Positions 3,143 through 29,717 of a stretch of 29,718 bases of DNA are shown here, piece by piece. Each line of letters begins with the position of its first letter. Positions within the stretch are counted from its first letter, which is position 1. A model generated the notes under the pieces. The model was given only the letters and a program-made list of their open reading frames with translations. It had not been told where the DNA came from and searched no databases. The stretch is from a virus, in the IMG/VR virus record IMGVR_UViG_3300000230_000023, positions 1 to 29,718 of that record. One strand, given 5' to 3'. The translations under genes and the position numbers were made by a program.

Positions 3143-3598
3143 ATGGCTGATTTTTCTGATTACTCTGGCAATTCTTCTGATGACTCTTCCACTCAGTCTA
3201 CCTTCATCGACATTGACACCTCTGATGCTCGTGAACCTATGGCTGTTGATGATGGGGAGTACAAGGTACGTATTACTGGGTATAATAAAGATAAGGCTGG
3301 CAATGTTATCCGCACTGGAGATACAGGCAACCGATACTTTATTGTTAACTTTGACATTCCTGACGAGGAATATTCCAAGGGATTTTCCAAAATATTCTCC
3401 CTTCCCAATGCAGACACTGATGCTAAGCGTCTGAACTCCATTAAGTGGGCTATTGAACTGTTCAAGAAATGCTTCGGTGTTGTAGACCTTGACCTCAACG
3501 GCCTTATTGGGAAAGAGGGTTGGGCGCTCCTCGTAAAGACCAACGATCCTGTGTATGGTGAGCAGAACAAAATTAGTACTTTTATCACTGGCGCATAA
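3143..3598 (+). CDS. DUF669-like protein, probable phage ssDNA-binding protein
   Basis: The core GEYKVRITGYNKDKAG (from about residue 38), then NRYFIVNFDI and YSKGFSKIFSLP, follows the strand pattern of phage DUF669-type proteins, in which a beta-rich OB-like domain precedes a helical segment. These commonly sit beside recombinase and polymerase genes and are thought to serve as ssDNA-binding proteins. The N-terminal 35 residues are Ser/Asp-rich and probably disordered, so the acidic tail typical of SSB is here at the front. AAGGAAC precedes the ATG. It is directly followed by a palindromic repeat and a strong terminator, so it ends the first transcription block. ssDNA binding is inferred from family and context, with no direct motif proof. 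Confidence 0.6.
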   Translation: MADFSDYSGNSSDDSSTQSTFIDIDTSDAREPMAVDDGEYKVRITGYNKDKAGNVIRTGDTGNRYFIVNFDIPDEEYSKGFSKIFSLPNADTDAKRLNSIKWAIELFKKCFGVVDLDLNGLIGKEGWALLVKTNDPVYGEQNKISTFITGA

Positions 3599-3601
3599 TT
3601 G

Positions 3602-3624
3602 CTACGTTACATTTTGTAACATAG
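3602..3624. repeat. dispersed 23-bp palindrome, copy 1 of 6
   Basis: Left arm CTACGTTACA, spacer TTT, right arm TGTAACATAG; the symmetry extends one base further on each side (G...C) with a single arm mismatch. It lies between the DUF669-like stop and the terminator, 47 bases before the ribbon-helix-helix-like gene. It is the only intergenic copy with spacer TTT in the sense direction of the downstream gene. Confidence 0.85.
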
Positions 3625-3636
3625 CATCAACCAATT

Positions 3637-6384: not shown

Positions 6385-8871
6385 ATGAATCGTCCTGCAA
6401 CCTATGTACCCGCAAGTGGAAGTAAGACAGCCACATATATAATTGTCGGAGAACATCCAGGTATTGATGAGATTAGAAGTGGTCGTCCTTTCGCGGGATA
6501 TTCTGGACAAGAACTCCATGAAGATTTACGCATGGCTGGAATTAACGTGGCTGATTGCTATATGACAAATGTCATAAAAGATGCAGATGAAATCATTGAG
6601 AAATACATCTCCTTCCACCCACGGCGTGGCCCATCTGTAACAGATAAGGGTCGTGAATATATTGACAAACTTGCTGAAGAAATTGCGGCACACCCCGCTA
6701 AAGTTATCATCGGCCTGGGGAATATTCCCTTATATGCTTTAGCAGATCGCCTTGGGGTCACCAGATGGAGGGGCTCTGTGCTTGATTGTGCATTGGTGGG
6801 GGGTAAGAAATTCATCCCTTCTATCTCCCCTTCATCAGTATGGAAACAATACACTAATAAACGTCTACTTATCTACGACCTGAAGAGGGCTAAGGAAGTA
6901 GCTGAAGGGAATTGGAAACCTCTAACACGGAATATAATCATCCGCCCTACCTTTGGGCAGTCTATGGAATTCCTACGGGTATGTAAGATGTGGGGTCTCC
7001 TTGGAAATCCCATAGCTTATGATATTGAAGTAGATATTTTCAATGGTGAGATGACCTGTATCTCCTTCTCCTACTCCCCTAACACTGTAATTAGCATCCC
7101 ATTTGTTGGAGAGGAAGGCGACTACTTCACACTTCCCCAAGAGGCTGAAATCCTTCTCACCATCGCCCGTATATTGGAAGACCCTAAGATTCCCATCCTG
7201 GGGCAGAACTTAGTGTTTGATTGCCATTATATGCTCCGTAAGTATGGCATCAAAACTACCAACATCCATGATACTATGGTAGCACAGAAGACCCTACTTC
7301 CTGACTACCCAGTAGGCCTCCACTTCATATGCTCCCTATATACAGACCTTCCTTATTATAAGGACGACGGGAAGTATTGGCTAAAGGGTATTGGTAATTG
7401 GGACTCTGGCTGGAAGTACAATGCACTGGATTCTGTAGTATGTGCAGATGCGTATCCCAAGCAGGTGGAGTCTTTAGTTAAACAACACAACTACCCCGCA
7501 TATGAGAGAAAACGTCTCTCAATCCTCCCCTACGTCTACCTCATGGAGCACGGCATTCGCATTAACGTAGCCTCTATGAAAGACGCTTATGACCAACTCG
7601 GGCGTGAGATCAGTGACCTGAAAGTTAGACTTAATAAATTGGCTGGTAAAGAACTCAACTCAAACTCTCCTGCCCAGGTTAAAAATTATTTCTACGTTGA
7701 GAAGAAACTCCCCGCTTATAAGGGCAAAGATGGAAAGGTATCCTCAGATGAAAAAGCACTTAAGAGAATCGCTCGTAAAGGTTTTGAAGAGGCGTCTATC
7801 ATACTTAAAATTCGTGGGCTCACCAAAGAACGAGCAACTTTTCTCGACACTAACAAAGTTGACACTGACGGGAGGATGCGTTGCTCATATAACCCAGTTG
7901 GAACCAGATTCTCTAGGGCATCTTCAAGTGAAAATATATTCGGGACTGGAAACAATCTCCAAAACCAACCCCATTCAGTGCTCTCCCATTTCTTGACCGA
8001 TCCGCATTATGTTTTTTACGGAATGGACCTTTCTCAGGCTGAGAGCAGAATAGTCGCTTACGTTGGGCGCATCACTCAAATGATCGAAGCATTTGAGGCC
8101 AATAAAGATACCCACGGATTGACTGCTACTATGATGGCCACCATTTTCTATGGAGGAAAGCTCCCAGAAGGTTGGACTCCTAAAACTTTAGCTAATATAG
8201 GGGATGGTAAAAAAGTATGGAGGGATTGGGGAAAACGTGCGAATCACGGATTGAATTATGATCTTGGTTATAAATCTTTCTCACTTGGTAATGAAATCCC
8301 TGAGAGGGATGGTAAGATAATTGTCGACAGTTACCATCGTGCATACCCTGGAGTTCGCCATGGCTTTCATAAGTACATCCAACAGTGCATTAATAAAGAT
8401 AGAACTCTCACTAATCTCATGGGCCGGAAGACTATATTCACTGACAAATTGGACGATCAACTTTTTAAGGATGCCTACGCGTGCATACCTCAAGGGAGCG
8501 TAGGAGATATTATTGACCAGAGAGGACTCAACTTTGTGTATTATAATCCTAATCCCCTCTTCAGATATGTTGAACTCCTCATCCAAATTCACGATCAGAT
8601 TGGATTCCAGATCCCTACACCTTACCATCCAACTCACCCAGTACAATGGAAGGATCATGGTAAAATTCTTACCACAATTAAGGAATCCTTAGAACGTCCC
8701 ATCTATACACACTACGGAAAGAAGTTCATCCTTCCTGCGGATACTCATATGGGAGTTACATTGAATAAGGCTGACGGTGCTGAACCAAAGAACTTTACAT
8801 CTGAGTGTTTAGCTGATACTTATCACGACGTAACTAAGCGATGGCTTCCAGTTGTTAGAGATTTAATATAA
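6385..8871 (+). CDS. UDG-like domain fused to family A DNA polymerase with 3'-5' exonuclease
   Basis: The phage replicative DNA polymerase, 828 aa. Residues 18 to about 175 are a uracil-DNA-glycosylase-like fold (GEHPGIDE at 22 to 29, RPFAGYSG at 34 to 41, later TNVIK), a fusion also known in SPO1-type phage polymerases. The exonuclease domain has Asp213 and Glu215 (YDIEVD), Asp279 (NLVFD) and Tyr345/Asp349 (YNALD), so it looks active. The polymerase domain has NLQNQP at about 524, motif A MDLSQAESR with Asp548, O-helix Arg613, Lys617, His621, Tyr625 and motif C IHDQ with Asp737. Oddities: His at the E. coli Phe762 position, Gln738 where family A has Glu, and a glycosylase domain lacking Fe-S cysteines and the motif 2 His. 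Starts two bases after its neighbour. Family certain; glycosylase activity doubtful. Confidence 0.96.
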   Translation: MNRPATYVPASGSKTATYIIVGEHPGIDEIRSGRPFAGYSGQELHEDLRMAGINVADCYMTNVIKDADEIIEKYISFHPRRGPSVTDKGREYIDKLAEEIAAHPAKVIIGLGNIPLYALADRLGVTRWRGSVLDCALVGGKKFIPSISPSSVWKQYTNKRLLIYDLKRAKEVAEGNWKPLTRNIIIRPTFGQSMEFLRVCKMWGLLGNPIAYDIEVDIFNGEMTCISFSYSPNTVISIPFVGEEGDYFTLPQEAEILLTIARILEDPKIPILGQNLVFDCHYMLRKYGIKTTNIHDTMVAQKTLLPDYPVGLHFICSLYTDLPYYKDDGKYWLKGIGNWDSGWKYNALDSVVCADAYPKQVESLVKQHNYPAYERKRLSILPYVYLMEHGIRINVASMKDAYDQLGREISDLKVRLNKLAGKELNSNSPAQVKNYFYVEKKLPAYKGKDGKVSSDEKALKRIARKGFEEASIILKIRGLTKERATFLDTNKVDTDGRMRCSYNPVGTRFSRASSSENIFGTGNNLQNQPHSVLSHFLTDPHYVFYGMDLSQAESRIVAYVGRITQMIEAFEANKDTHGLTATMMATIFYGGKLPEGWTPKTLANIGDGKKVWRDWGKRANHGLNYDLGYKSFSLGNEIPERDGKIIVDSYHRAYPGVRHGFHKYIQQCINKDRTLTNLMGRKTIFTDKLDDQLFKDAYACIPQGSVGDIIDQRGLNFVYYNPNPLFRYVELLIQIHDQIGFQIPTPYHPTHPVQWKDHGKILTTIKESLERPIYTHYGKKFILPADTHMGVTLNKADGAEPKNFTSECLADTYHDVTKRWLPVVRDLI

Positions 8872-8874
8872 ATG

Positions 8875-8897
8875 CTATGTTACAAAATGTAATAAAG
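8875..8897. repeat. dispersed 23-bp palindrome, copy 2 of 6
   Basis: Left arm CTATGTTACA, spacer AAA, right arm TGTAATAAAG. The inner 5 bp of each arm is perfect and the outer right arm is degraded (TAAAG instead of TATAG). It begins three bases after the polymerase stop and runs into the purine repeat before the DUF3987-like gene. Copy 4 has the same degraded arm. Confidence 0.8.
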
Positions 8898-8914
8898 GAA
8901 AAAGGAAAAAGGAA
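8894..8914 (+). repeat. triplicated AAAGGAA heptamer, Shine-Dalgarno-like leader
   Basis: Three perfect tandem copies of AAAGGAA, followed directly by AAGGAG (8915 to 8920) that is spaced six bases from the ATG at 8927. Each heptamer is itself a weak ribosome-binding sequence, so the leader may act as a ribosome standby site; slippage during replication would change copy number. Confidence 0.75.
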
Positions 8915-10126: not shown

Positions 10127-10443
10127 GAGAACTTCAAGAATTACTCCATCTCTTATGCTGCACTAAACCTCACGCCACTAATATGGAGGATATCTTAGAT
10201 CGTAAAGATGGCGTATGCTACTTCTATATTGAAAGGGATATGGCCATAGATGAAGACCTCCCTAACCACATCGAATGGGAGATGGAAGTGGCTAAATTTA
10301 AAAACAGTATGGGCTTTAAAACAGAAGAGGCCACCTTGGATTTCATCAGGGATTGTATTAAGTTATCCCATGAAATTTACAAGGTGACCTCAGGGTTGGA
10401 AGATCGAGAAGTATTCTTACACTCCCTAATTAGAAGGGCTTAG
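10123..10443 (+). CDS. hypothetical protein, 106 aa, last gene of the plus-strand block
   Basis: Not recognised. Acidic, mostly helical prediction, with a Cys pair near the start (LLCCTKPHA), a predicted beta segment GVCYFYIERDM and a helical remainder. The ATG overlaps the upstream stop (ATGA), so it is coupled to the DUF3987-like gene. Its last 14 bases overlap the 3' end of the convergent ejection-protein gene, which leaves no room for a terminator between the two arms. Confidence 0.65.
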   Translation: MRELQELLHLLCCTKPHATNMEDILDRKDGVCYFYIERDMAIDEDLPNHIEWEMEVAKFKNSMGFKTEEATLDFIRDCIKLSHEIYKVTSGLEDREVFLHSLIRRA

Positions 10444-13400
10444 GTGGAAGAGGGGGTCTTGGGATTTCAGGCCTAAGACCTCCCTTCTTCTTCTTCTCCT
10501 CATCGTAGACTCCAAGTATTATTTGATAAGGATTCCCGCCCTTATAAGCGGAGTTTATACTTTTCAATATCTGATTGGTCATAGGAATCCCAGCAGTCAG
10601 CCCCACTGCCCTTGCTATAAGTCTTATATTATAAGATTTCTGCTTATCTGTTAAGTTGCCCCAGTCTAAAGATGCCGCAAATTTCTCCCCTGCTTCGGGC
10701 ACAACATCTGCCCATTCCCCAGCTATGCCAAAAAGACTTGAACCAAACTTAGCACTTCCCCCAATGATTGGGATCTTTTCTAACAACTCCCCCGCCGCGG
10801 CCCCTACAGCACGAAGGTCACCCTTACCTTCCTCCTTGGCTTGCTGATAAGCGCCGATTGGATCAGGAACTACATTGTCTAACCCAATCATCTTATAGAG
10901 TTGTCCTGCTAAGATAGTAGCAGCGGCATACTTAGCCACCCTAATAATAGTCTTCCCCTGATTTGCTTCTGGATTCTTAATCCCTAACACATCCCGGGCA
11001 ATAAGATTAAAATCCGCAATAGCGAAAGTCTGAAGTATTGTTAGCCACTTGGTAGCCGCACTACTTTGAATATCACTAACTGCCCCCTTAACCCCCATTC
11101 CTTGAGTTCTCTCTACTATATCATCAGCAAATCTATACAAATCTCTACCCTGGAGTTTAAGCCTCTTCTCCCCATAATACCTAGCAGCATTGAATGCAGC
11201 TTCAGCTATAATACTATCAAACCATTTCATGGGTTTTAAACTTTTCTGCGCCGCATATCCAATCGTCCCACTCATCTTACCTTGCTGAATGTAGTCAGAT
11301 AATTCCTTAAAGTTATAATCCGCCTCACGGATATCAATTATAGAAGAATTCTGACGTGCAGTAGACTTACCAAAAGGTCTCTCACTCATCAACTTAAATA
11401 TCCCATACGCAGTACTTCTTAAATCTAACATAGTAGGTATGCCAATCATGTAAGATGTAGGCTGAACTAACACTGTCCTCACCGACCCGCCAATTGTACC
11501 CACCACTAAATTCTTAGTAAGCCTATCCTTACCCCATGCGAAGAATGGGTTAGCATTAGCCAGCGCCGTAGCCACTACATCCTTACCAACTATCTGGTCA
11601 CTCCACCTACTTAGCATTCTACTCAGGTAGGGGTTCCAATCAACTAAGGAAATCTTCCCCTTCCCACCATCAATTCTTGGTAAATTAAGATTAGCCAAAT
11701 CCTTAGCCAGTGCAGCCACAGGACTAATGTGAATTTCATCTAACCCATACTCTGCGTGGCGCCTTAATGCTTGGAAGGGATCTAGCTCAATCGGTATATC
11801 TGACACATGCCTCTTCTTAGAGTTAGGATTAAACATCCCGTTGAATTTCTTACTAAGTTCTCCTAACTTCTTAGCATCCGAGATAGTGAGACCCTCAGCC
11901 AGGCCCATATCACGGAGGACATTCAAGTCCCTCACCAATGGGAGATAATTCTCTTTCCCCTCCATATCTAAAAGTTTAGGAATAGCTTTTTGCCCTGTGT
12001 GAGTACGAATATAATTAGATCTATCCCTAAACTTACGAGTATATTCTAAGAGTTGCTCTAATACCACACTCTCCTTAGGGGTTAGAGTGGGAATTTCTGT
12101 AATACCCATTCTATCAAAAGCCTCTTTCACACTCTTCATCTTTGCATATGCTGCTATGGCAAAATCCCTTCGGCGCTCTGGAGCTATTTGACTCTCGAGG
12201 TTGTCCATCCAAGCTTTAACCTCCACCATCTCCCTATGAGCCGCACTCTTAGCTTCCCTCCACATACTATAAAGATCTGATAGACCTGCTGATCTGAAGG
12301 AATTAATCTTAACCTCCGTAGCTTGCATAGCTTTCTCAAATCCATTAGATGTATGCTCAACTAAAATCTTCCCAGTGGCGGGATCTTTCCGCACAACATC
12401 ACTTCCCCATTGCATATCACGATTGGCAGACATGACCCTGTTAGCAAGAGTTTCAGTAATTGGAGGCCCGACCGCGATTACTTCTTTATTCGTATTCTTG
12501 ATTATAGTCTGTGCAACTACCTTACCCTCAGGGGTTAGTATGGAAGTTGTCACTGGATCCTTATCCATCAACTCTTGTTTCATCTGAGGGACTCGAGCCA
12601 TAGCAGACTTAAATGCCATAGCCGCAGCTTCATCAGCACCTATGTGGGCTAAGTATTCATCGATAGATTTACCCATCTTCTCAGCGGCTCTAAGTGTAGA
12701 CTCCACCATGTCGACTACACCACGGAGGGGAGTTAAGTCTGCGGAGCCTCTTTCATTATGTAAGATGTCAAATAAATCCCTAACCCCTGTATCACTCATA
12801 TCCATATCTGGGTAGGCATCTCCATCTAACAAGGATTCCGAACGTCCTGTTAGTTGCTCCACCCCTTCATCGAACAGATCTAACTCGTCCAAATTCTTGA
12901 ACTTCTCAGCATTAGCTATACTCCACCGACCAGTCTCAGGATTTTCTACTAACTTCCCATAAGTATCATTAGCCATCATCCAATCAGTGGCAGCTTGCTC
13001 GGACTCGAAAGATTTGAAGTCATCATTGGCAAGGGCAAGGGCTTCTTTAGTGATTGGGGTTTTAGGAGGGGCACTTTTCTTAGGAGTCTGTGCTATATTA
13101 CATTTTGTAACATAGGAATCCTGCCACTCCTTATACGCTTTCTGAAGTTGTGCTATACGGGCGGGATCAGCAGGAGCCTTAACTCCAATCTCCCCCGCAG
13201 CTTTAGCCTCAACTTCAAGCTCACCACTTAAGGCCTTAATCCTATCCTGCGCCTTGATCTCATTCAACGTGGCCTTTCCTACTTCCACTTCCAACGCTGC
13301 CCACTCAGCTGGGCTAACATCATCTTCCCATGTCTCTACCCTCTTAGAAGTAGGCTCCTCAGCCATTACCTCAAGGGTCTCTGGCATCTCAGCAAATTCA

Positions 13401-15424
13401 ACAGTCCTATAATACTTATCCCCTATCTTAACAGGCTCAGTACCACCCTCCCCTACCTCATAATACTTAAGGCGCCTTTCTGGAATCTCACTCAGTACAT
13501 CGAACCCCGCAGCATTAGCCTCAGCTACTGATTTAAACTCAGCAACCACAGGCTCATCTATATATTTAGCAACTCTATATTTCTCCCCAACCTTAACTAC
13601 CTCATGCCCATCACCCATTTCAGTGGCCTTAGCCTGAGCAGTTTCTGAAGTGGGGAAAGTTTTCTTAGTGGGGAAAGTATACCCCTCACCCTTGGCCATA
13701 TTAATATCAGTGAATTCACTAATAACTGGAACATTGGCTTCTTCAATGGGAGTTCCACCCACAGGTTGAGACTCTACAACTGGTACTTCTGAAGAGGCTT
13801 CACCTTTAGGGGGGATAGCCTCTAATGATTTAACGGGCTCAACCACCTCAATCGGTGTAGTAATAGTAGCCTCAGCCTTCACATCTTCAGGAGTGATAGG
13901 AAGTTCACTAAGTGGAGCTTCATTCTTGGGCTCTATAGGAGGCGCAAACATTCCATTATCTGGAAGTACTTCCTTAGCATTTGCAGCATCCCTTTCAGCA
14001 ACTAACTTAACAATAAGTTTACCTGTAGTACCCTTAACCCTGATACCTTTAATAGGGTTAAAATCAACTAATCCGGCATCTTGTTCAAGGTCTGCAACTA
14101 TCTTGGCAGCTTTACGTATACTACCTTTACCATTAGCATCGTCTCGTAACTCAGCCTCCATAAGAAGGCCTTCAACTATACTTTGATTCCCTGCGAACTT
14201 AACTTCTGGAATGGGCGCAGCCTTAACCTTATCACTGGCAACCTTCTTAGCGGCCCTACCCTTAATCTCATTAAGTACCCCTACATCTACCCCTTCAACT
14301 TCAACCTTCACCTCTGGAGCTACATTAGGATCACTCAGTATCTGAGCCTTAGCTTTAGCTGCCCCTTCAGCTGTGATCTCCTGAGAGGCCAGAGCCTTAG
14401 CGGGGTTATTAGGGTCAATCCCCCCACTACCTTTAAACGCCCCTTTAAACATCGGAGCTATCATCGCCACATTCATGAAGAACTGAGTGGCTTTGATCTT
14501 ATGATCTAACTCTTCTGGGGTGGCATTTGGATAAGAATCCTTAATATATTCAGCTCCAGTGTTTAAGATTCCTCCAAACACTACCTCAAAAGGCCGCATG
14601 AGGACTTTAGCTGTGGTAGTCTGAGAATCACCCATAGCAGCGTGAGCTATCTGATTGAAGGTCTCTCCCCCTGCCTCCGGCCCGCTTGTAATAGCCTTAG
14701 CAGTCCCTCCAATGGCCGCAGCTGGTAATCCAATTAGACCTGCCCCCAACTGCATCCCAAACTCGCCCAGTCCATAGAGTATATCCTTACTCCAACGTGC
14801 AATAGGGCCACCAGTATTCTCAAATCCAAATGGTAACTTGCCCGTAGTATCTGGAAGTGGGGCAGATGCTGCATCTGAGAACCCCCTCTTAGCAGGGTCT
14901 ATAAGTTGTGTCAATAATAATGGAGGCTTCTCATAAACTTTACCCTCTGGATATGGACTCTGCCCATACGTATCCATAAGGCTACTCATATCAATATCCT
15001 GAGGCTGGGCAGTGGGCTGTCCCCCATATATACTTCTCACCCTACCAACATAATCTTGAGCCTTACTAAGATCTCCACCCGGCCCTTGATTATACATAGC
15101 GAGAGCCTTATCTACATCCCCTCCCGCAGTGTTTAACTGTTGCTTGAAGTACTTGACTCCTCCAGTGAGATTCTCCCTAGGGTCAAAAACATTCTTAACC
15201 CCCATATCACTGGCAGTTCCCTTCACCAGTTGCATCAACCCACTAGCACTACTCTCAAGATTGGTGGCATTAGGATTAAAAGAACTCTCAGTTTGTACTA
15301 TAGCACGGATAAGTTTAGGATCAACACCTTGAGCATTACTAATATCATTAATAAGATTATCAAAGTCCTCTCCCTCATACTGTAGAGGTTGCCCTTTAGA
15401 TGGAATATCAAATATACTTTGCAT
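10430..15424 (-). CDS. giant internal virion / ejection protein with lytic transglycosylase domain, 1664 aa
   Basis: Probable DNA-ejection protein packaged in the capsid, functionally like T7 gp16 (1318 aa) but larger. Residues 20 to 135 are an SLT-type lytic transglycosylase: catalytic Glu46 in VQTESSFNP, then GLMQL (62 to 66) and AMYNQGP (109 to 115); it would open peptidoglycan at infection. Next come Gly/Ala-rich hydrophobic segments (about 220 to 300) and an acidic, Pro/Val-rich middle with about three related hairpin modules (about 580 to 830), then long helices. The C-terminal third again has hydrophobic stretches (VVGTIGGSVRTVLV; AKYAAATILAGQLY), reminiscent of phage polyvalent proteins, and a Pro-rich end. 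The ATG at 15424 has GAGG before it, overlapping the upstream stop; an in-frame GTG four codons earlier is rejected. Residues 770 to 778 are encoded by a copy of the dispersed palindrome. Confidence 0.9.
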   Translation of the reverse strand: MQSIFDIPSKGQPLQYEGEDFDNLINDISNAQGVDPKLIRAIVQTESSFNPNATNLESSASGLMQLVKGTASDMGVKNVFDPRENLTGGVKYFKQQLNTAGGDVDKALAMYNQGPGGDLSKAQDYVGRVRSIYGGQPTAQPQDIDMSSLMDTYGQSPYPEGKVYEKPPLLLTQLIDPAKRGFSDAASAPLPDTTGKLPFGFENTGGPIARWSKDILYGLGEFGMQLGAGLIGLPAAAIGGTAKAITSGPEAGGETFNQIAHAAMGDSQTTTAKVLMRPFEVVFGGILNTGAEYIKDSYPNATPEELDHKIKATQFFMNVAMIAPMFKGAFKGSGGIDPNNPAKALASQEITAEGAAKAKAQILSDPNVAPEVKVEVEGVDVGVLNEIKGRAAKKVASDKVKAAPIPEVKFAGNQSIVEGLLMEAELRDDANGKGSIRKAAKIVADLEQDAGLVDFNPIKGIRVKGTTGKLIVKLVAERDAANAKEVLPDNGMFAPPIEPKNEAPLSELPITPEDVKAEATITTPIEVVEPVKSLEAIPPKGEASSEVPVVESQPVGGTPIEEANVPVISEFTDINMAKGEGYTFPTKKTFPTSETAQAKATEMGDGHEVVKVGEKYRVAKYIDEPVVAEFKSVAEANAAGFDVLSEIPERRLKYYEVGEGGTEPVKIGDKYYRTVEFAEMPETLEVMAEEPTSKRVETWEDDVSPAEWAALEVEVGKATLNEIKAQDRIKALSGELEVEAKAAGEIGVKAPADPARIAQLQKAYKEWQDSYVTKCNIAQTPKKSAPPKTPITKEALALANDDFKSFESEQAATDWMMANDTYGKLVENPETGRWSIANAEKFKNLDELDLFDEGVEQLTGRSESLLDGDAYPDMDMSDTGVRDLFDILHNERGSADLTPLRGVVDMVESTLRAAEKMGKSIDEYLAHIGADEAAAMAFKSAMARVPQMKQELMDKDPVTTSILTPEGKVVAQTIIKNTNKEVIAVGPPITETLANRVMSANRDMQWGSDVVRKDPATGKILVEHTSNGFEKAMQATEVKINSFRSAGLSDLYSMWREAKSAAHREMVEVKAWMDNLESQIAPERRRDFAIAAYAKMKSVKEAFDRMGITEIPTLTPKESVVLEQLLEYTRKFRDRSNYIRTHTGQKAIPKLLDMEGKENYLPLVRDLNVLRDMGLAEGLTISDAKKLGELSKKFNGMFNPNSKKRHVSDIPIELDPFQALRRHAEYGLDEIHISPVAALAKDLANLNLPRIDGGKGKISLVDWNPYLSRMLSRWSDQIVGKDVVATALANANPFFAWGKDRLTKNLVVGTIGGSVRTVLVQPTSYMIGIPTMLDLRSTAYGIFKLMSERPFGKSTARQNSSIIDIREADYNFKELSDYIQQGKMSGTIGYAAQKSLKPMKWFDSIIAEAAFNAARYYGEKRLKLQGRDLYRFADDIVERTQGMGVKGAVSDIQSSAATKWLTILQTFAIADFNLIARDVLGIKNPEANQGKTIIRVAKYAAATILAGQLYKMIGLDNVVPDPIGAYQQAKEEGKGDLRAVGAAAGELLEKIPIIGGSAKFGSSLFGIAGEWADVVPEAGEKFAASLDWGNLTDKQKSYNIRLIARAVGLTAGIPMTNQILKSINSAYKGGNPYQIILGVYDEEKKKKGGLRPEIPRPPLPPKPF
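13093..13115. repeat. dispersed 23-bp palindrome, copy 3 of 6, inside a coding sequence
   Basis: Left arm CTATATTACA, spacer TTT, right arm TGTAACATAG, with one arm mismatch. Unlike the other copies it lies within an open gene, where it is read in frame as SYVTKCNIA at about residues 770 to 778 of the ejection protein, in a Pro/Lys-rich linker (QTPKKSAPPKTP follows). No stop or start is created. Confidence 0.85.
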
Positions 15425-15432
15425 CTTTAACC

Positions 15433-16356
15433 TCACTTAGCAATTCCGGCAATCTTGAGAAATTCCTCTATTGTGTACCCCTTATCCTTGGCCATTTGCT
15501 TAATCGCTCCAACGGTTAGAACCTTTTCTGTTTTTTCATCATAATATACGACCTTATCATCAGGGAGATTCACAATCTTGGAAACCTGTTTAGGGATCTT
15601 AATATACTGAGTTGGAACATCCTTATCAACCCAACCACCAAATCCACCTCCAGGAATAGTCTTCCCAGGGATCTTAATATACTGATCATGCTTATCATTG
15701 GCATTGACCAGAGTCATGTTATTATCTCTAGTGACCTCATCAAGCTCCTCACCCTTAGCATCTACCCCACTCTCCACACCCGATTTTAAAGCACTAAGAG
15801 TATACTGATCAGTGATAGAGTACCCATCATCTTTACTGGTTACAAGTACAGACCCCGGCTCAACAGGATCTCCTGGACCTACCCAGTATATATTCCCCTT
15901 AGGATCTCTAAGAAGTTTTTTATCCTGGGCTTTGAAATCTTTGGTAGGCGCAGCCCCAATATCAGCCTGTCTAACTAAGTTACCATACTTATCATGGTAT
16001 CTCTGAACCCATCTATCCCCCACCTGAACTGGAGAATCTGCCTTAACTTCGCCAGATTCAAGCTTCATATTAAGCCACTTTCTCTGCTCTTCAACACTCT
16101 TAAGACGATTCTCCTGAATATCCTGAGCGGCCTTCTGCTTAAGCACCTCATTACTCTGCGCTTGTTGGCCCTTATAGTATTGGTCGATGTTATCTAATTG
16201 TTTATTCTGCAATCCAGCTCCCATCAATTTATATACATCCTCTGGACTTAGACCTCGAAGATCCATACCCCCTAAGACTTGTCTAATAAGATTAGAACTA
16301 TCTACACCACCCCCTACATTTGGAGATTGCTGAGTTGCCCCAGAAGGGCTTCCCAA
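15433..16356 (-). CDS. virion-block protein, probably the -1 frameshift extension of the 140-aa ORF
   Basis: A 307-codon open frame with no convincing start of its own. Its first start-type codon is a TTG at 16356 with no Shine-Dalgarno, inside the preceding gene; the first ATG (residue 31, 16266) has only AGGGGG one base away. The frame opens 13 bases before a C CCT TTT heptamer that is in phase in the upstream ORF, so a -1 shift there would give a 434-residue product (127 plus 307). The sequence is Gln/Lys-rich and helical at first (QQAQSNEVLKQKAAQDIQENRL), then beta-rich with two near-identical QYIKIPGK / QYIKIPKQ strands. Lies directly before the ejection protein, so an internal virion protein is likely. 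Function not recognised. Alternatives: a natural frameshift mutation or an assembly error in the C4T5 run. Confidence 0.6.
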   Translation of the reverse strand: MGSPSGATQQSPNVGGGVDSSNLIRQVLGGMDLRGLSPEDVYKLMGAGLQNKQLDNIDQYYKGQQAQSNEVLKQKAAQDIQENRLKSVEEQRKWLNMKLESGEVKADSPVQVGDRWVQRYHDKYGNLVRQADIGAAPTKDFKAQDKKLLRDPKGNIYWVGPGDPVEPGSVLVTSKDDGYSITDQYTLSALKSGVESGVDAKGEELDEVTRDNNMTLVNANDKHDQYIKIPGKTIPGGGFGGWVDKDVPTQYIKIPKQVSKIVNLPDDKVVYYDEKTEKVLTVGAIKQMAKDKGYTIEEFLKIAGIAK

Positions 16357-16736
16357 AAAGGGGACTGTTCAGACACTCCCCCCATGGAAGATGTTTTCAT
16401 AGACTCTGGAATTTGTGAAGATCCATAGTTTAAGCTAGACAATTTCTGTTGTGATGGGGTAAATACTTTAGTAGTAATACCATCTATAGTCTCTTCTCTG
16501 ACAATCTTATCAGGGCCAGGTTTATTAGGAGCTGTTACCTGAGGATTATTCCCTTGCAAGGCTCGCATCTTGAGGGCTTCCATAGTAGCATCTCCTATAG
16601 CCTCACCACCACTCTTACCTTGCGCGATATTACTTCCCATACTGGCTAACATCCTAAGAAACTCAGGGTTTGCCTTAAAGTTACCATCCTCACCTGCCCC
16701 CCCAAAAAATCCCCAATCAGTTCCACTTGTAGTCAT
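16314..16736 (-). CDS. hypothetical virion-block protein, 140 aa, zero-frame product of a frameshift pair
   Basis: Not recognised by family. Gly-rich, with GFFGGAGEDGNFKANPEFLRMLASMGSN near the start (written in two parts: GFFGGAGEDGN, then PEFLRMLASMG), a pattern seen near the start of small podovirus virion proteins, then a Pro/Ser/Gln-rich, probably disordered tail. The ATG at 16736 has AGGAGA five bases before it, and that Shine-Dalgarno abuts palindrome copy 4. The last 13 codons after Phe127 overlap the 307-codon frame. If frameshifting occurs, this is the shorter, presumably more abundant product; otherwise it is a separate small gene. Confidence 0.65.
   Translation of the reverse strand: MTTSGTDWGFFGGAGEDGNFKANPEFLRMLASMGSNIAQGKSGGEAIGDATMEALKMRALQGNNPQVTAPNKPGPDKIVREETIDGITTKVFTPSQQKLSSLNYGSSQIPESMKTSSMGGVSEQSPFWEALLGQLSNLQM
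16356..16362 (-). promoter_or_regulatory. candidate programmed -1 ribosomal frameshift site
   Basis: On the minus strand the heptamer C CCT TTT fits X XXY YYZ and is in phase in the 140-aa ORF (codons Pro126, Phe127). After a -1 slip the next codon is TTG 16356 to 16354, the first codon of the 307-codon frame. Six bases downstream is a small GC hairpin (GCCC, loop TTCTG, GGGC; 16349 to 16337). The -1 frame has a stop only 13 bases upstream of the heptamer. The stem is short, so efficiency is uncertain. Confidence 0.5.
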
Positions 16737-16745
16737 ATTATTCTC

Positions 16746-16768
16746 CTATGTTACATTTTGTAATAAAG
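16746..16768. repeat. dispersed 23-bp palindrome, copy 4 of 6
   Basis: Plus-strand left arm CTATGTTACA, spacer TTT, right arm TGTAATAAAG. It fills most of the 35-base gap between the internal virion protein stop and the 140-aa ORF; in the gene direction its outer arm ends in CATAGGA, which merges into the AGGAGA ribosome-binding site. Confidence 0.85.
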
Positions 16769-16771
16769 CAA

Positions 16772-17662
16772 TTAAAGAAGTCCTGATAGGCCGCCTAATA
16801 CTCCACCAACAGCCATTCCCACAGGCCCAGCTACAGCTCCACTAGATGCACCTGCAAGCATCCCTCCCATAGCAGCACCAGTCATAGCACCGCCCACTAC
16901 CTTAGCACCTGTACTAGCACCCCCACCTTGTATACTCTCACTACTCTGAGCCCCTTGTAAAGCTCCAAGAGCCGCCCTCTCTTGATCAAGCACTGTGAAA
17001 GGCCACATAGTATTCTTAGTATGCGAGGTATAATTATACTCATCAGTAGTCTTCTTCATATCATAGTATATTTGAAGATTCTGAAGATGTGTATTTACTA
17101 TCTGCTTATTCCATTCTAATGATGTATTCCATATATCACTAATAATTGGTAGCATAGCATATTTAAGGCCAGTACTATATTTAGAAAGTAGCCTTAGTCG
17201 CTGACTCTCTATATTACCCTTAGCTATAATAAATGTACTACTCATCACAGCATTAAGATCTCTGGCTCCGGCCATCAATCTAGGATAAGCCTCTGTGTTA
17301 ACATCTTCACTAAGCAACTTCCCTTCAGCTACTATAGATTCCTTAATCGCTGGCGAGGACATGACTTTGGAGAATATAGTATCATACAGTGTCTGTGGGA
17401 CTACGTCTACCATAAAATCATTAAAATTCTTAAATAGACTTGAGTAAGATTTTATAGTTATCCCCACACCTAAAAATCCTGCGTCTGTATCTATACCTAC
17501 AAAATTACTAAATGGAGAAGCTCCTATGAGACTATTCCTATAATTCGCTACAACGCTTAGAAATGTTTGATGCTGAGATTCTATATAAGGTGCGAATCTT
17601 ACAGTGTTAGTCTGAGTGCCACTACTAGTACTACTCCCACCACCCCCACTACTACCTCCCAT
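16772..17662 (-). CDS. internal virion protein with membrane-active Gly/Ala tail
   Basis: 296 aa. The first 20 residues are almost all Gly, Ser and Thr; the middle (about 25 to 235) is predicted helical with many aromatic and aliphatic residues; the last 50 (from about GASTGAKVVGGAMTG) are Gly/Ala/Met-rich and hydrophobic, like the membrane-inserting tails of podovirus ejection proteins and of many phage proteins that cross the host membrane. Position between the GNAT-like gene and the transglycosylase protein fits an internal core component. ATG with AGGGGG ahead; its start overlaps the upstream stop by 11 bases. The virion role is inferred from composition and context; no named family was recognised. 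Confidence 0.65.
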   Translation of the reverse strand: MGGSSGGGGSSTSSGTQTNTVRFAPYIESQHQTFLSVVANYRNSLIGASPFSNFVGIDTDAGFLGVGITIKSYSSLFKNFNDFMVDVVPQTLYDTIFSKVMSSPAIKESIVAEGKLLSEDVNTEAYPRLMAGARDLNAVMSSTFIIAKGNIESQRLRLLSKYSTGLKYAMLPIISDIWNTSLEWNKQIVNTHLQNLQIYYDMKKTTDEYNYTSHTKNTMWPFTVLDQERAALGALQGAQSSESIQGGGASTGAKVVGGAMTGAAMGGMLAGASSGAVAGPVGMAVGGVLGGLSGLL

Positions 17663-18112: not shown

Positions 18113-19330
18113 CTAATTAATGCGATCAGTATCTAAATACATATAGTCATGTATTCGCCCTTTGACTATAATAGACTCTATCTTAAGATCTTCAGCCACA
18201 GTAGTGCCACCTATTCTAAATCTAAACTCCACTCCGTAGCATGGAAGTTTGACATTCCCATCAGGCCCTACACCTAAAGTTGGGGTAGATGTAAAAGGAT
18301 CTTTAGACGAAAGTCTAAAATCAATGGCAGCATTAAGGCCTGTAGGATCACTAACTGTCAGAGCCAGGCCTGATAGTGTCTTACCCTTCCTAGTCCCCAT
18401 ATCATATATGTCTGTGACTATGCTAAAGGAGGGGTGAGTGATTGTATTAGAAGCCCCTACCCACATAGCGTCATCCTGCCACTTAATCCCTGTAATATTC
18501 ACAGGGCCAGTACCTAAGCTTTCACTATCCTCTGAGTACACATACCCTAAAGTCCCATCACATATGTAGACTAAACTATTAATCTCATCGTAGGACATGT
18601 AAGGTAGGGGCATCTGAGATAGAAATTCTCTATACCCCAACTTAACAATCTTTCCATCCCCACTAACCTTATAGAGTTCCCCCACAGTATTTATAAAATA
18701 GTGAGACTCTCCAGTATTAACCACCGCCCCATTCCCTTTAATGCCTACCTTAGATACTAACCCTTTCTTATAAAAAAGATCTTGAGGAGTTATAACAGCA
18801 ATCCCACTATCTCCATATACAAAGATTAATTTACTATCCCCTAATTGCTCAATAGCATAGATAAACCCTTTAAACCCAATAGGCATTTTACCTGCTACAT
18901 TAGAGGAATCTATATTAAAATTTAACTCCCCTATATTACTCCACGCAACCCAATTACTATAAGGATGGGATAGGTGAAATATTGCACCAATATCTAATGA
19001 TACTCCTACATACCCTCTAGCAACTATCTTAGGATTGATAAATTTAGAATATACCCCAAGAGCTAAACGTGTAAGTAGGGTTGTTCCGAATTCATCAAAG
19101 TTACCATACACACCTAAACCCATCCTAGGTATGTAATCTATATTTGCTAAGTCTATATAAGTATCAAGATCAGGGATTCGCAGAGTTGTATGGAATGAGC
19201 TGAACACTCCATGACCCCTATATAAGACTCCTATCTTACTGTTATTAATATTAGCTGATACTTCAACAGTATATATGCCCAGGAGTTTATCCCCATAAAT
19301 GCCACTCCCAAGAATTATATTCCCAAGCAT
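18113..19330 (-). CDS. beta-rich tail protein, possible tail nozzle/propeller type
   Basis: 405 aa, almost wholly beta by pattern. The motif WVAWSNIGELNFNI (about 135 to 148), followed by a segment ending LIFVYGDSGIAVI, matches propeller-blade repeats seen in podovirus tail nozzle-like proteins (P22 gp10, T7 gp12 type), where a line about an 'is-the-site-shown' strand repeats around a ring. Further strands HYFINTVGELYKVSG and SLVYICDGTLGYVY continue the blades; the C-terminal 100 residues are a beta-sandwich-like region (GLALTVSD, AIDFRLSS, YGVEFRFRIGG). AGAGGT precedes the ATG. A tail role is supported by position after the fibre genes; the specific family is inferred from pattern only. Confidence 0.55.
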   Translation of the reverse strand: MLGNIILGSGIYGDKLLGIYTVEVSANINNSKIGVLYRGHGVFSSFHTTLRIPDLDTYIDLANIDYIPRMGLGVYGNFDEFGTTLLTRLALGVYSKFINPKIVARGYVGVSLDIGAIFHLSHPYSNWVAWSNIGELNFNIDSSNVAGKMPIGFKGFIYAIEQLGDSKLIFVYGDSGIAVITPQDLFYKKGLVSKVGIKGNGAVVNTGESHYFINTVGELYKVSGDGKIVKLGYREFLSQMPLPYMSYDEINSLVYICDGTLGYVYSEDSESLGTGPVNITGIKWQDDAMWVGASNTITHPSFSIVTDIYDMGTRKGKTLSGLALTVSDPTGLNAAIDFRLSSKDPFTSTPTLGVGPDGNVKLPCYGVEFRFRIGGTTVAEDLKIESIIVKGRIHDYMYLDTDRIN

Positions 19331-19340
19331 GATAGACCTC

Positions 19341-19694
19341 TTAAGAACTTAATAAAGTATTATGAGATTGGGTCATCAGATGGAGTAGGTGAGTTATGGC
19401 AGGATCAGGTTTAGGTTCCACCTTACCATTAACACTCTCACACAGCCCATTCCTAAGGCCCTCCGTAGCGAGTTGATTACCCTCAAGGAGTTTCAAGGAT
19501 TTAAACTTTAGATCAAAAATTACTAAATCCATACACGCCTTAACAATAACATCAGGTTTAGATGGGTCATCTGCTTTATAGGTAAGTTCAACCCATGCAG
19601 GACAACCTTCCTCTCCATCCCACCCCATCTTAGGGCACCCATCTGAGAAGCGTGCTAGATTCCTAATGCAAGGAGGTTTAATCTTCGGCATCAT
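19341..19694 (-). CDS. hypothetical Cys-containing protein, 117 aa
   Basis: Not recognised. The N-terminal part has four cysteines spaced C9, C20, C31 and C54 in a Gly/Trp-rich context (CPKMGWDGEEGCPAW), which could bind a metal or be a small disulfide-free knot; the C-terminal half is helical with a Ser/His-rich end. GGAG is five bases before the first of two adjacent ATG codons; the start overlaps the upstream gene by 17 bases, so translation is coupled. It lies in the tail-fibre cluster, so an assembly or fibre-associated role is possible but unsupported by motif. Confidence 0.55.
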   Translation of the reverse strand: MMPKIKPPCIRNLARFSDGCPKMGWDGEEGCPAWVELTYKADDPSKPDVIVKACMDLVIFDLKFKSLKLLEGNQLATEGLRNGLCESVNGKVEPKPDPAITHLLHLMTQSHNTLLSS

Positions 19695-20193
19695 TAACTC
19701 CTACAAAACTATCTCTGGTTTTGAGATAAGTATATGCACATGCCAATATATTGCCGGTAGTGAATACTTTCCTATGTGAAAAATACTTCTCATAATCATT
19801 ATCAGTTTCAGCCTTAGCAGCTTTGGTAGCATCTGCAGTTACTATAGATGCCTTATGAGTATCCATAGCCGTATTGTAGGCTATTAGAGCATTGTTATAT
19901 TCGTTAATCTCTGGCTGAGGTGTCCCATCTGGCCACATAGGTACTAAAGCCTCTCTAGCAGTGCATAATTCTGGATACACTGGAGGAGTTAAGGTGTTAG
20001 TAGGGAGAGTTTCTAAATACTTTCTAACTTCTACAGCCCTACTAACCTTAAACTCCATAAGGTTAATTACTTCATCTCCACCTTTATGATCGAAAGTTTT
20101 GAGCTCAAAACTAATCTCCCCCATATCTATATCAACTATTACCCTGCTGATTTTAGAATAATAATCCTTCTGAATAAACCCTTTAAGCCCCAT
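19678..20193 (-). CDS. hypothetical tail-cluster protein, 171 aa
   Basis: Not recognised. N-terminal half is beta-like (KISRVIVDIDMGEISFELKT, read as VIVDIDMGEISFEL), then a Pro-rich linker (TLTPPVYPELC) and a helical segment with repeated Ala/Asn/Thr (YNNALIAYNTAMDTHKASI). The position directly after the tail fibre gene, with 10 bases between, is where fibre-assembly chaperones are commonly encoded, and the mixed beta/helical layout would permit that. No chaperone signature is present, so the role is an inference from position only. AAAGGTG precedes the ATG. Confidence 0.55.
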   Translation of the reverse strand: MGLKGFIQKDYYSKISRVIVDIDMGEISFELKTFDHKGGDEVINLMEFKVSRAVEVRKYLETLPTNTLTPPVYPELCTAREALVPMWPDGTPQPEINEYNNALIAYNTAMDTHKASIVTADATKAAKAETDNDYEKYFSHRKVFTTGNILACAYTYLKTRDSFVGVNDAED

Positions 20194-21851: not shown

Positions 21852-22352
21852 TTAATCTCCTAAATTATACCCAGCATTGGGGGCCCCTATAATAATTTGC
21901 CCATTATAATTACATATTGCCATAGCAGTAGGATGATCACTTGTAATGCTAAATATATTTGATATAGGATCTCGTACTACAGTAATACTCCCATTACTCA
22001 TATACACAAAATCTTCTACAGTTATTAAACTCCAAGTAGACCCTACAACTGCAGTGGATATCTTAAGTATTAAATTACTCCCATCATACTCATATATATG
22101 AGTGGCAGTGCACACTAAAATAATATAAGGCTCGATGAAAATCTGAGGATAAGGGAATGTGGAAGTTAAGTCAAAAGTTTTTACTAACTCATCTAACCTT
22201 TGAAGTACCCCTTCTCTACCTACAGCTCCTGCGCAATATATCAACCCATCACTGTTAAGGTAATTAGATTTACTCCTACGGAGACCTTTAGATAAAACCT
22301 CAGGCTTTATGGGCATAGAGAAAATTCCATCTTTAGTAAGTTCAATTGGCAT
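21852..22352 (-). CDS. tail protein, nozzle/stopper-like N-domain, 166 aa
   Basis: The N-terminus (DGIFSMPIKPEVLSKGLRRS, then LIYCAGAVGREGVLQRLDEL) resembles the first domain of podovirus tail nozzle proteins that begin with a short region recognising the adaptor ring and a GxxxRxG strand. Repeated short strands with YEYDGSNLILKI, ITVEDFVYMSNGSITVV and AICNYNGQIIIG look like single blades of a propeller. It is much shorter than P22 gp10 (472 aa) or T7 gp12 (794 aa), so the propeller may be shared with the 405-aa protein downstream. The ATG overlaps the upstream stop (TAATG). Assignment from pattern and position, not confirmed. Confidence 0.5.
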   Translation of the reverse strand: MPIELTKDGIFSMPIKPEVLSKGLRRSKSNYLNSDGLIYCAGAVGREGVLQRLDELVKTFDLTSTFPYPQIFIEPYIILVCTATHIYEYDGSNLILKISTAVVGSTWSLITVEDFVYMSNGSITVVRDPISNIFSITSDHPTAMAICNYNGQIIIGAPNAGYNLGD

Positions 22353-22708
22353 TATAATTCTCCAAATGGGCTACCTTCAGATAGAACTCTGGGGACTTCA
22401 CTCTTAGGAAGAACATCCTGAGTGTTAAGTGTAGTTTTTAATTTGATCTGATTTTCAATTTCTGGAATGGCGCCATTTAAAATGTCATCATAGTTTTGAC
22501 CTAACTTAGCACCTTCTATCTTAGCCACAACATCTCGTACTACGTCAGTGTGATCTTTAAACTTTGGATGTTTACTATAAAAGTCATCTTTAATCTTAGC
22601 ATTACTGGCATGATTAGCCATGAGATTTCCTACTACCTCAGGCATTAAGGTTAAGATTCTCTCAATCACCTTTAGTACAATTCTATCTTCAACTTCCTGA
22701 GTAATCAT
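22352..22708 (-). CDS. hypothetical tail-block protein, 118 aa
   Basis: Not recognised. Helical prediction throughout: ITQEVEDRIVLKVIERILTLMPEVVGNLM, given here as two parts (VEDRIVLKVIERIL; MPEVVGNLM), then DDFYSKHPKFKDHTDVVRDVVAKIEG. The product is charged and lacks cysteines or glycine-rich segments. It starts between the adaptor and a tail protein with GGAGGG four bases before the ATG, and its stop overlaps the next start. A small helical connector or chaperone of the tail is possible from position only. Confidence 0.55.
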   Translation of the reverse strand: MITQEVEDRIVLKVIERILTLMPEVVGNLMANHASNAKIKDDFYSKHPKFKDHTDVVRDVVAKIEGAKLGQNYDDILNGAIPEIENQIKLKTTLNTQDVLPKSEVPRVLSEGSPFGEL

Positions 22709-23700: not shown

Positions 23701-23710
23701 CCTATACCTC

Positions 23711-23733
23711 CTATGTTACATTTTGTAATATAG
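23711..23733. repeat. dispersed 23-bp palindrome, copy 5 of 6
   Basis: Left arm CTATGTTACA, spacer TTT, right arm TGTAATATAG. The symmetry extends to TCC/GGA on each side, giving 12-bp arms with one mismatch, the most complete copy. It lies between the post-capsid hairpin and the start of the 74-aa gene, where its outer arm runs into the AGGAGG ribosome site. Confidence 0.9.
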
Positions 23734-23759
23734 GAATGGGGCCATTGTGACCCCACTCC
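23733..23759 (-). other. strong RNA hairpin 10 bases after the capsid gene
   Basis: On the minus strand GGAGTGGGGTC, loop ACAAT, GGCCCCATTCC form an 11-bp stem with two G-U pairs. It is the only strong stem in the late block outside the palindromes. No U-tract follows (TATATTACAA), so it is a weak candidate for a terminator and more likely protects or attenuates the abundant capsid mRNA end. Confidence 0.65.
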
Positions 23760-28727: not shown

Positions 28728-28735
28728 TTTGATTC

Positions 28736-28758
28736 CTATGTTACAATTTGTAATATAG
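28736..28758. repeat. dispersed 23-bp palindrome, copy 6 of 6
   Basis: Left arm CTATGTTACA, spacer ATT, right arm TGTAATATAG. It fills the 33-base gap between the terminase stop and the portal start almost completely; its outer arm continues to CATAGGAA, the portal ribosome site. The spacer differs from all other copies (ATT). Confidence 0.88.
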
Positions 28759-28760
28759 CA

Positions 28761-29717
28761 TTACCCAATTACAGTAAAGCCCATATCTTCAACACTCATC
28801 ATTGCTTCGTTATCTAACTCATCATACTCATCTTCACTTGTAGCATTAACAGATTCCCCATCAGACGGGTCAAAGTACACTGCATGTTTATCCATGATAT
28901 AGGTTATGTATGAGAGTGCATCCATAACATCCCACAACTTAGATCTTGGGAATCCTAAAAGCTGCCCTTCTAACTTACCACAGTTATTAGGATTATGGTA
29001 CATATACCCAAGACGGTAACTTGGTGCTAAAGAGGCTACTCTATCTTCTTTCCTACCCTTAGGTGGAAGTTCCATAATCAGTGGATGAATCCCTCTAACC
29101 CTACACTCATTCTCTACAGGCTGAATGATGAATTGACTAAGGCCTGTTACTTCGTATCCTAAGATAAAAGATGAGTACAACTGCACCTGACGAAACATCT
29201 CAGCGTATAGTTGATCAGGATAGAATTTCTCCGCCACTATATCCCTAATAAAAATACGCTTAGAAGTTCTGTCTACTGCTACAGTTAACACTGCAGAATC
29301 CGCACTTTGTAATTTAACAGTACGGGCCGGATCCGTAATAGTAACATGAAGAAGGTTTCTAGTACTAACCCTCTCACCATCTACAAGTATATGATCCCCC
29401 TGATCCTCAAAATACTTAAAGTATTCCTGCTTAAAAACTGCGTCTTCTTTAGATATAGGTACATTCATACGCTCCATGTAGAATGCGTCTAATGTCCCAA
29501 GACGCCTATGCTCTGCAACCTCGGCCAGAATCTCATCATCGGTCATGTAGTTAGGATCATATGACTTATAATTATCATCACAAATGGATAGTTGAATAGA
29601 TGCCCACTCAGGAGATTCTATCAAATCCACAAGAAGAGAATCTTCATGTTTGATGGTGTCTATATAAATAAATATACACCCTTTCGAGTACCTATCCTCA
29701 GTCTTCATCAAATCAGA
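28761..29717 (-). CDS. terminase large subunit, C-terminal nuclease part, truncated by window edge
   Basis: Headful or end-specific packaging motor subunit. The fragment (318 codons to the edge, frame open beyond) carries an RNase H-like nuclease domain with the three metal-binding acids Asp127 (HVTITDPAR), Glu187 (GYEVTG) and Asp264 (WDVMDALS), numbering from the first start-type codon at 29711. The ATPase domain with Walker A lies outside the window, and the TTG/ATG near 29711 has no Shine-Dalgarno, so the real start is further right. The acidic tail (EDEYDELDNEAMM) is typical of the C-terminus that docks to the portal. Portal is next downstream with 33 bases between. Good certainty of family. 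Confidence 0.87.
   Translation of the reverse strand, partial: SDLMKTEDRYSKGCIFIYIDTIKHEDSLLVDLIESPEWASIQLSICDDNYKSYDPNYMTDDEILAEVAEHRRLGTLDAFYMERMNVPISKEDAVFKQEYFKYFEDQGDHILVDGERVSTRNLLHVTITDPARTVKLQSADSAVLTVAVDRTSKRIFIRDIVAEKFYPDQLYAEMFRQVQLYSSFILGYEVTGLSQFIIQPVENECRVRGIHPLIMELPPKGRKEDRVASLAPSYRLGYMYHNPNNCGKLEGQLLGFPRSKLWDVMDALSYITYIMDKHAVYFDPSDGESVNATSEDEYDELDNEAMMSVEDMGFTVIG

Follow-up and report, generated by a model that had tools for sequence, protein, structure and literature searches.

Several described systems resemble the locus analyzed here. The frameshifting cassette of Escherichia coli dnaX combines an upstream Shine-Dalgarno (SD)-like element, a slippery heptamer of the form X_XXY_YYZ (A_AAA_AAG), a short spacer and a stem-loop. 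In lambda G/GT (tail assembly chaperone) and T7/T3 gene 10A/10B (capsid), a -1 slip in a late structural gene yields a short protein together with a C-terminally extended one, and tail chaperones and capsid genes are the known phage examples of -1 frameshifting (PMC5009743, PMC10885494). For the DNA-ejection block only one isolated frameshift prediction was found in the literature searched. It places a -1 slip among the internal virion protein genes of Alteromonas phage vB_AspP-H4/4 (MF278336, genes 39/40) (PMC5658483), with A_AAA_AAG_TAG as the site and GGGAG upstream, and the predicted products are a short N-terminal protein and a longer fused one. In T7 the order gp14-gp15-gp16 places a middle protein, encoded by one ORF, between a helical membrane-type protein and a large SLT protein.

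The window is the whole 29,718-bp virus record analyzed, and its virion block contains two overlapping ORFs, A and B, with B open only in the -1 frame relative to A. The site has counterparts of the four elements of the dnaX cassette, the hairpin being weak in the window, and differs from it in having C_CCU_UUN as the family heptamer, in its unrelated gene and in its predicted outputs, the short product being the 0 frame and the long product the -1 frame. Compared with lambda G/GT and T7/T3 10A/10B, A/B is a different gene adjoining an ejection-type SLT protein, and what its long form adds C-terminally is an entire folded domain, some 300 residues long. The H4/4 prediction concerns a gp16-type gene (endolysin domain and the rest) in one genome of the Autographiviridae, and A shows no similarity to the neighboring gp15-position protein of H4/4. 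The order of genes is that of T7, with the middle gene split as T7 gp15 is not. Programmed -1 ribosomal frameshifting in this late virion gene is the best explanation of the layout, with a probability of about 0.93. The mechanism is textbook, and the A-B gene family is provisionally regarded as new, no description of it having been found in a search of papers largely outside the subscription journals.

Results

Gene Neighborhood and the Overlapping Frames

The plus strand of the window carries a replication block including a DNA polymerase. The virion genes lie on the minus strand and comprise terminase, portal, major head protein, proteins of 405 and 150 amino acids, a 296-aa helical protein, ORFs A and B and a 1668-aa SLT protein (Table 1). 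The head protein shares 51% identity with its counterpart in Desulfofustis phage LS06-2018-MD01, and the SLT domain of the 1668-aa protein spans residues 28-122 (PF01464, E 3.6e-23). A palindromic sequence around CTATRTTACAAAATGTAACATAG occurs in six copies in the window (3594-3627, 8867-8900, 13085-13118, 16738-16771, 23703-23736 and 28728-28761), three of them directly upstream of virion genes (the 140-aa ORF, the gene after the head protein and the portal), and resembles a phage regulatory site or promoter element present in several copies.

Table 1. Features of the A/B locus and its flanking genes in the window
Feature	Position	Strand	Remarks
Gene upstream of A, 296-aa all-helical protein with Gly-rich hydrophobic C terminus	16772..17662	-	gp14-like by position and character
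ORF A, 140 aa, 0 frame	16314..16736	-	short product; N-terminal helical domain
Shine-Dalgarno-like GGGGGGAG	16376..16383	-	13 nt upstream of heptamer
ORF B, 311 codons plus stop	15433..16368	-	C-terminal folded domain; open only in -1 relative to A
A/B dual-coded overlap	16314..16368	-	52 coding nt plus A stop codon
Slippery heptamer C_CCU_UUU (X_XXY_YYZ)	16356..16362	-	in phase in A
Hairpin GCCCU-UCU-GGGGC, 5 bp	16337..16349	-	after 6-nt spacer; conserved position of stimulatory hairpin
Second, weaker predicted stem	16302..16334	-	overlaps A stop codon; minimum-energy structure only
Trans-frame peptide predicted for A-B fusion, SEQSPFLGSPSGATQQ			
Gene downstream of B, 1668 aa, N-terminal SLT transglycosylase domain	10430..15436	-	gp16-like by architecture

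ORF A starts at ATG 16736, preceded by GGAG, and ends at TAG 16316-16314. ORF B is open from 16368, directly after TGA 16371-16369, to its stop codon at 15435-15433. The open -1 frame described in the original prediction is present, and the length of 307 codons given for it counts from TTG 16356. Around the slip site A reads GTG TCT GAA CAG TCC CCT TTT TGG GAA GCC CTT CTG on the minus strand, with the heptamer in the claimed phase. The frame of B opens 6 nt before the first base of the heptamer, the 13 nt quoted originally being the distance to its last base. Translation with a -1 slip at C_CCT_TTT gives a protein of exactly 434 aa, as foreseen, with the junction ...SPFLGSPSG... No SD-supported start codon was found in B in the window, in agreement with the claim that the second frame has no credible start.

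Conservation of the Slip Site in Related Contigs

About 150 viral loci were gathered through the head protein and the gene just upstream of A, and in each the interval from the 296-aa-type gene to the large SLT-type gene was read. In 17 contigs, the window included, a short A (126-190 aa) precedes a B that is open in -1 alone, with no stop-start junction between the two, and in all of them the second frame lacks its own initiation signal. The other 16 are uncultured phages from many samples, with protein identities down to about 20-30%; being related to one another, the 17 contigs do not amount to 17 independent events. An in-phase X_XXY_YYZ heptamer lies within the overlap in every one of the 17, where 0.95 would be expected from the background rate in the same genes, and this count is slightly favorable because 14 of the contigs were chosen by ORF layout and L028, L034 and L103/L017 were recognized from ORF lists and homology matches. 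Among other -1 overlapping pairs of open frames in the same loci, 7 of 273 carry an in-phase heptamer. The heptamer is C_CCT_TTN (C_CCT_TTT, C_CCT_TTC or C_CCT_TTA) in 14 of the 17, A_AAT_TTT in L120 and L139 and A_AAC_CCT in L160; elsewhere in these genes C_CCT_TTN is absent from all 6,119 other codon pairs. One close relative, L092 (= L001), is 79% identical in B and has the same split, the same upstream G-rich motif and also CCCCCTTTTTGGG.

The original prediction had allowed that the C4T5 run could be a sequencing error, which would make A and B a single gene. Homopolymers are error-prone and 38 of 95 rows are indeed single ORFs, yet the split recurs in contigs from many samples, always in -1 and with differing heptamer letters, it is shared in the same phase by L092 with a C5T5 run, and runs as short as CCCTTTC, with three T's (TCC CCT TTC), are split as well. 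An error of sequencing or assembly is thus very improbable. The same short runs bear on slippage of the RNA polymerase rather than the ribosome, for which the T5 following C4 in the window would be the substrate. Known transcriptional slippage uses longer runs, of more than 7 A or more than 8 T (PMC3711429), and the in-phase heptamer, spacer and hairpin suit a ribosome, leaving transcriptional slippage with hardly any likelihood.

In-phase A_AAT_TTT or A_AAT_TTA heptamers also occur in other -1 overlapping frames of L085 (near 5564) and L055 (near 3812), which may be further frameshift sites or chance.

Elements Flanking the Heptamer

Bacterial -1 sites can have a stimulatory SD-like element spaced 9-14 nt upstream (PMC5009743), and in the window GGGGGGAG lies at 13 nt, an element not included in the original prediction. 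A strong upstream SD-like motif is present in 12 of the 17 contigs, with a mean duplex energy of -8.0 kcal/mol compared with -3.8 kcal/mol for other codons, and a good motif is missing in L095, L120 and L139.

Downstream of the heptamer, where a stimulatory RNA structure is expected at about 5-9 nt, the first paired base of the predicted fold falls +5 to +8 nt past the heptamer in all 17 contigs, and on average 2.5% of control windows of the same genes fold equally well. In most relatives the fold has a z of -1.7 to -4.4 with strong hairpins at this same position, many of them long (z about -3 to -4.4). The GC hairpin and six-base spacer originally proposed for the window are present, the hairpin being weak. 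The window and L092 retain its 5' arm with only 5 bp, and their z values of -0.83 and 0.05, respectively, are no better than those of dinucleotide shuffles. The short hairpin is the weakest point of the frameshift case for the window. A search for long-range pairing of this hairpin gave only GU-rich candidates that are not conserved in L092. Nucleotide conservation between the window and L092 is raised near the slip site, at 91% against 85%, and is not exceptional. The 0-frame tail after the slip site, PFWxALL, appears conserved; it is not counted as proof of a functional short product because the 5' arm of the hairpin (AGCCCTT) forces much of it.

Separate initiation of B from an internal start, TTG 16356 or ATG 16266, by reinitiation or coupling is very unlikely. 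ATG 16266 lies at the B domain boundary (MDLRGLSPED) and could start B in the window from an SD-like AGGGGG, and five relatives (L115, L122, L149, L173 and L177) have a split A/B with an ATG at the A stop. However, AGGGGG is badly spaced, only about 1 nt from ATG 16266, and TTG 16356 abuts the slip site and is 19 nt from the SD-like motif. In L034 and L132 the part of the open B frame ahead of the conserved domain contains no ATG, GTG or TTG, and separate starts leave the invariant in-phase heptamer, the spacer and the hairpin unexplained.

Programmed frameshifting accounts for these elements by a route in which ribosomes translate A and the SD-like GGGGGGAG inside A can pair with 16S rRNA. 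The downstream hairpin would hold the ribosome back while CCU occupies the P site and UUU the A site, allowing both tRNAs to re-pair one base back, onto CCC and UUU. A fraction of ribosomes would then read on in B to give the A-B protein, and the remainder would stop 13 codons further and release the 140-aa A protein.

Selection and Alternative Architectures

In three frameshift pairs dN/dS in the own frame is 0.09-0.45 for A and 0.13-0.33 for B, with 0.33 for B between the window and L092, which indicates purifying selection on both. These values, with B open throughout, argue against a frameshift mutation that left A alone in use and B as a decaying pseudogene. On the tree the splits are interspersed with intact single ORFs, as such mutations would be, but the break is in -1 in 17 contigs against +1 in one (L052), and decay of B is an extremely remote prospect. 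In L052 (18457-19855) the A/B break is in +1 (or -2), at TTC CCT CTT CAA TAG with no ATG near, and is a possible +1 frameshift or error.

The original prediction had proposed checking whether related phages keep the overlap and heptamer or have a single ORF, and both kinds are found. In more than 20 loci, hidden Markov models of A and of B match the same single ORF, with the A domain ahead of the B domain. A syntenic single ORF of 487 aa is present in Desulfofustis phage OP947158, and its product matches the two fused proteins (E 8e-4 and 9e-5) and also the A model. A and B are separate ORFs in nine rows, and in L165 (5208-6410) and L166 (5235-6598) the A domain is in tandem, an A-only ORF preceding a second ORF that itself begins with a further A domain. 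With the overlap, phase, heptamer, spacer and fold kept in 16 other contigs, both frames under selection and unsplit homologues in existence, the candidate frameshift of the original prediction becomes the best explanation of the locus.

On a quick tree of the 296-aa-type protein, 11 changes of the frameshift state are required, no fewer than four of them forced by supported branches, so that the state has arisen or disappeared several times; exchange of genes among neighbors could inflate the count.

Among GenBank phages no close relatives of A, B or their divergent homologues were found by DNA or protein. The frameshift layout was not recognized in five known isolates picked by head-protein similarity (Vibrio ABTNL-3, Caulobacter Kuura, Microcystis Mel-JY34, Pseudomonas 119X and Roseobacter CRP-810), of which Mel-JY34 has two ORFs with a stop-start overlap. 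None of five contigs binned in bacterial or archaeal metagenome-assembled genomes has a frameshift in the A/B gene.

Predicted Structure and Role of the Product

A structure was modeled for L126, a near homologue with a single ORF, from a 37-row alignment. The model has N-terminal helices in residues 1-90 with moderate confidence, a disordered stretch at 95-148 and a confident C-terminal domain at about residues 150-391, which would place the frameshift junction of the split relatives in a predicted disordered linker between the helical and folded domains. Family and fold searches with A-B, including the unsplit homologue, and with the 296-aa protein gave no convincing match (VIA-align rows all Z <5); the model of the 296-aa protein is of low confidence and had no significant match in a PDB fold search. 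The same family and fold searches found no similarity of A or B to T7 gp15 in sequence or fold.

The A-B gene lies between the gp14-like and gp16-like (SLT) genes, in an order shared with the relatives, and this succession of helical Gly-rich protein, A-B and SLT protein puts A-B at the place of gp15 in T7. By this analogy the product is likely an internal virion (ejection) protein in the gp15 position, made as a short A and a long A-B. A tail assembly chaperone of the G/GT kind was considered and rejected, as the downstream gene encodes an SLT protein and not a tape measure and there is no match to a tail-chaperone family.

Discussion

Sequence comparison establishes the overlap and its phase, the slip site with its spacer, the fold in relatives, the selection on both frames and the unsplit homologues; that ribosomes slip, how often they do so, that both products are needed and that the protein serves in ejection are inferred from these. 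A-B is a well-supported addition to the few phage structural genes in which programmed frameshifting is used. The original prediction called a slip in the internal-protein block unusual, a fair statement with the single earlier proposal for H4/4 standing beside it, in a different gene (gp16/endolysin, PMC5658483). Ordinary gene callers split or mis-start the A-B gene, and annotations therefore lack the 434-aa protein.

The occurrence of a frameshift, a single ORF, split ORFs and a duplicated domain in one family is a natural experiment on why viruses keep recoding sites, and the mixed architectures suggest that virion building depends on how much short protein is made relative to long. A tentative extension, to which we give somewhat less than even odds, is that this podovirus-like family requires one ejection protein in two forms, free A and fused A-B, at a fixed proportion reached by repeatedly switched routes. 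The routes to both forms would be separate ORFs, duplication of A (L165, L166) and -1 frameshifting, for which three kinds of heptamer serve, and the conserved PFWxALL tail would then be a functional end of the short form.

Rearrangements are also seen next to the A-B gene. The gp14-like (296-aa) gene is tandemly duplicated upstream of A-B in L096, L097, L098, L100, L101, L103-L109, L134 and L140. In L017 (= L103) two ORFs of 127 and 165 aa lie between the gp14-like gene and ORF A (19074-19939) and resemble the window ORFs at 22352-22708 and 21852-22352, a displacement indicating that gene order has been shuffled in L017.
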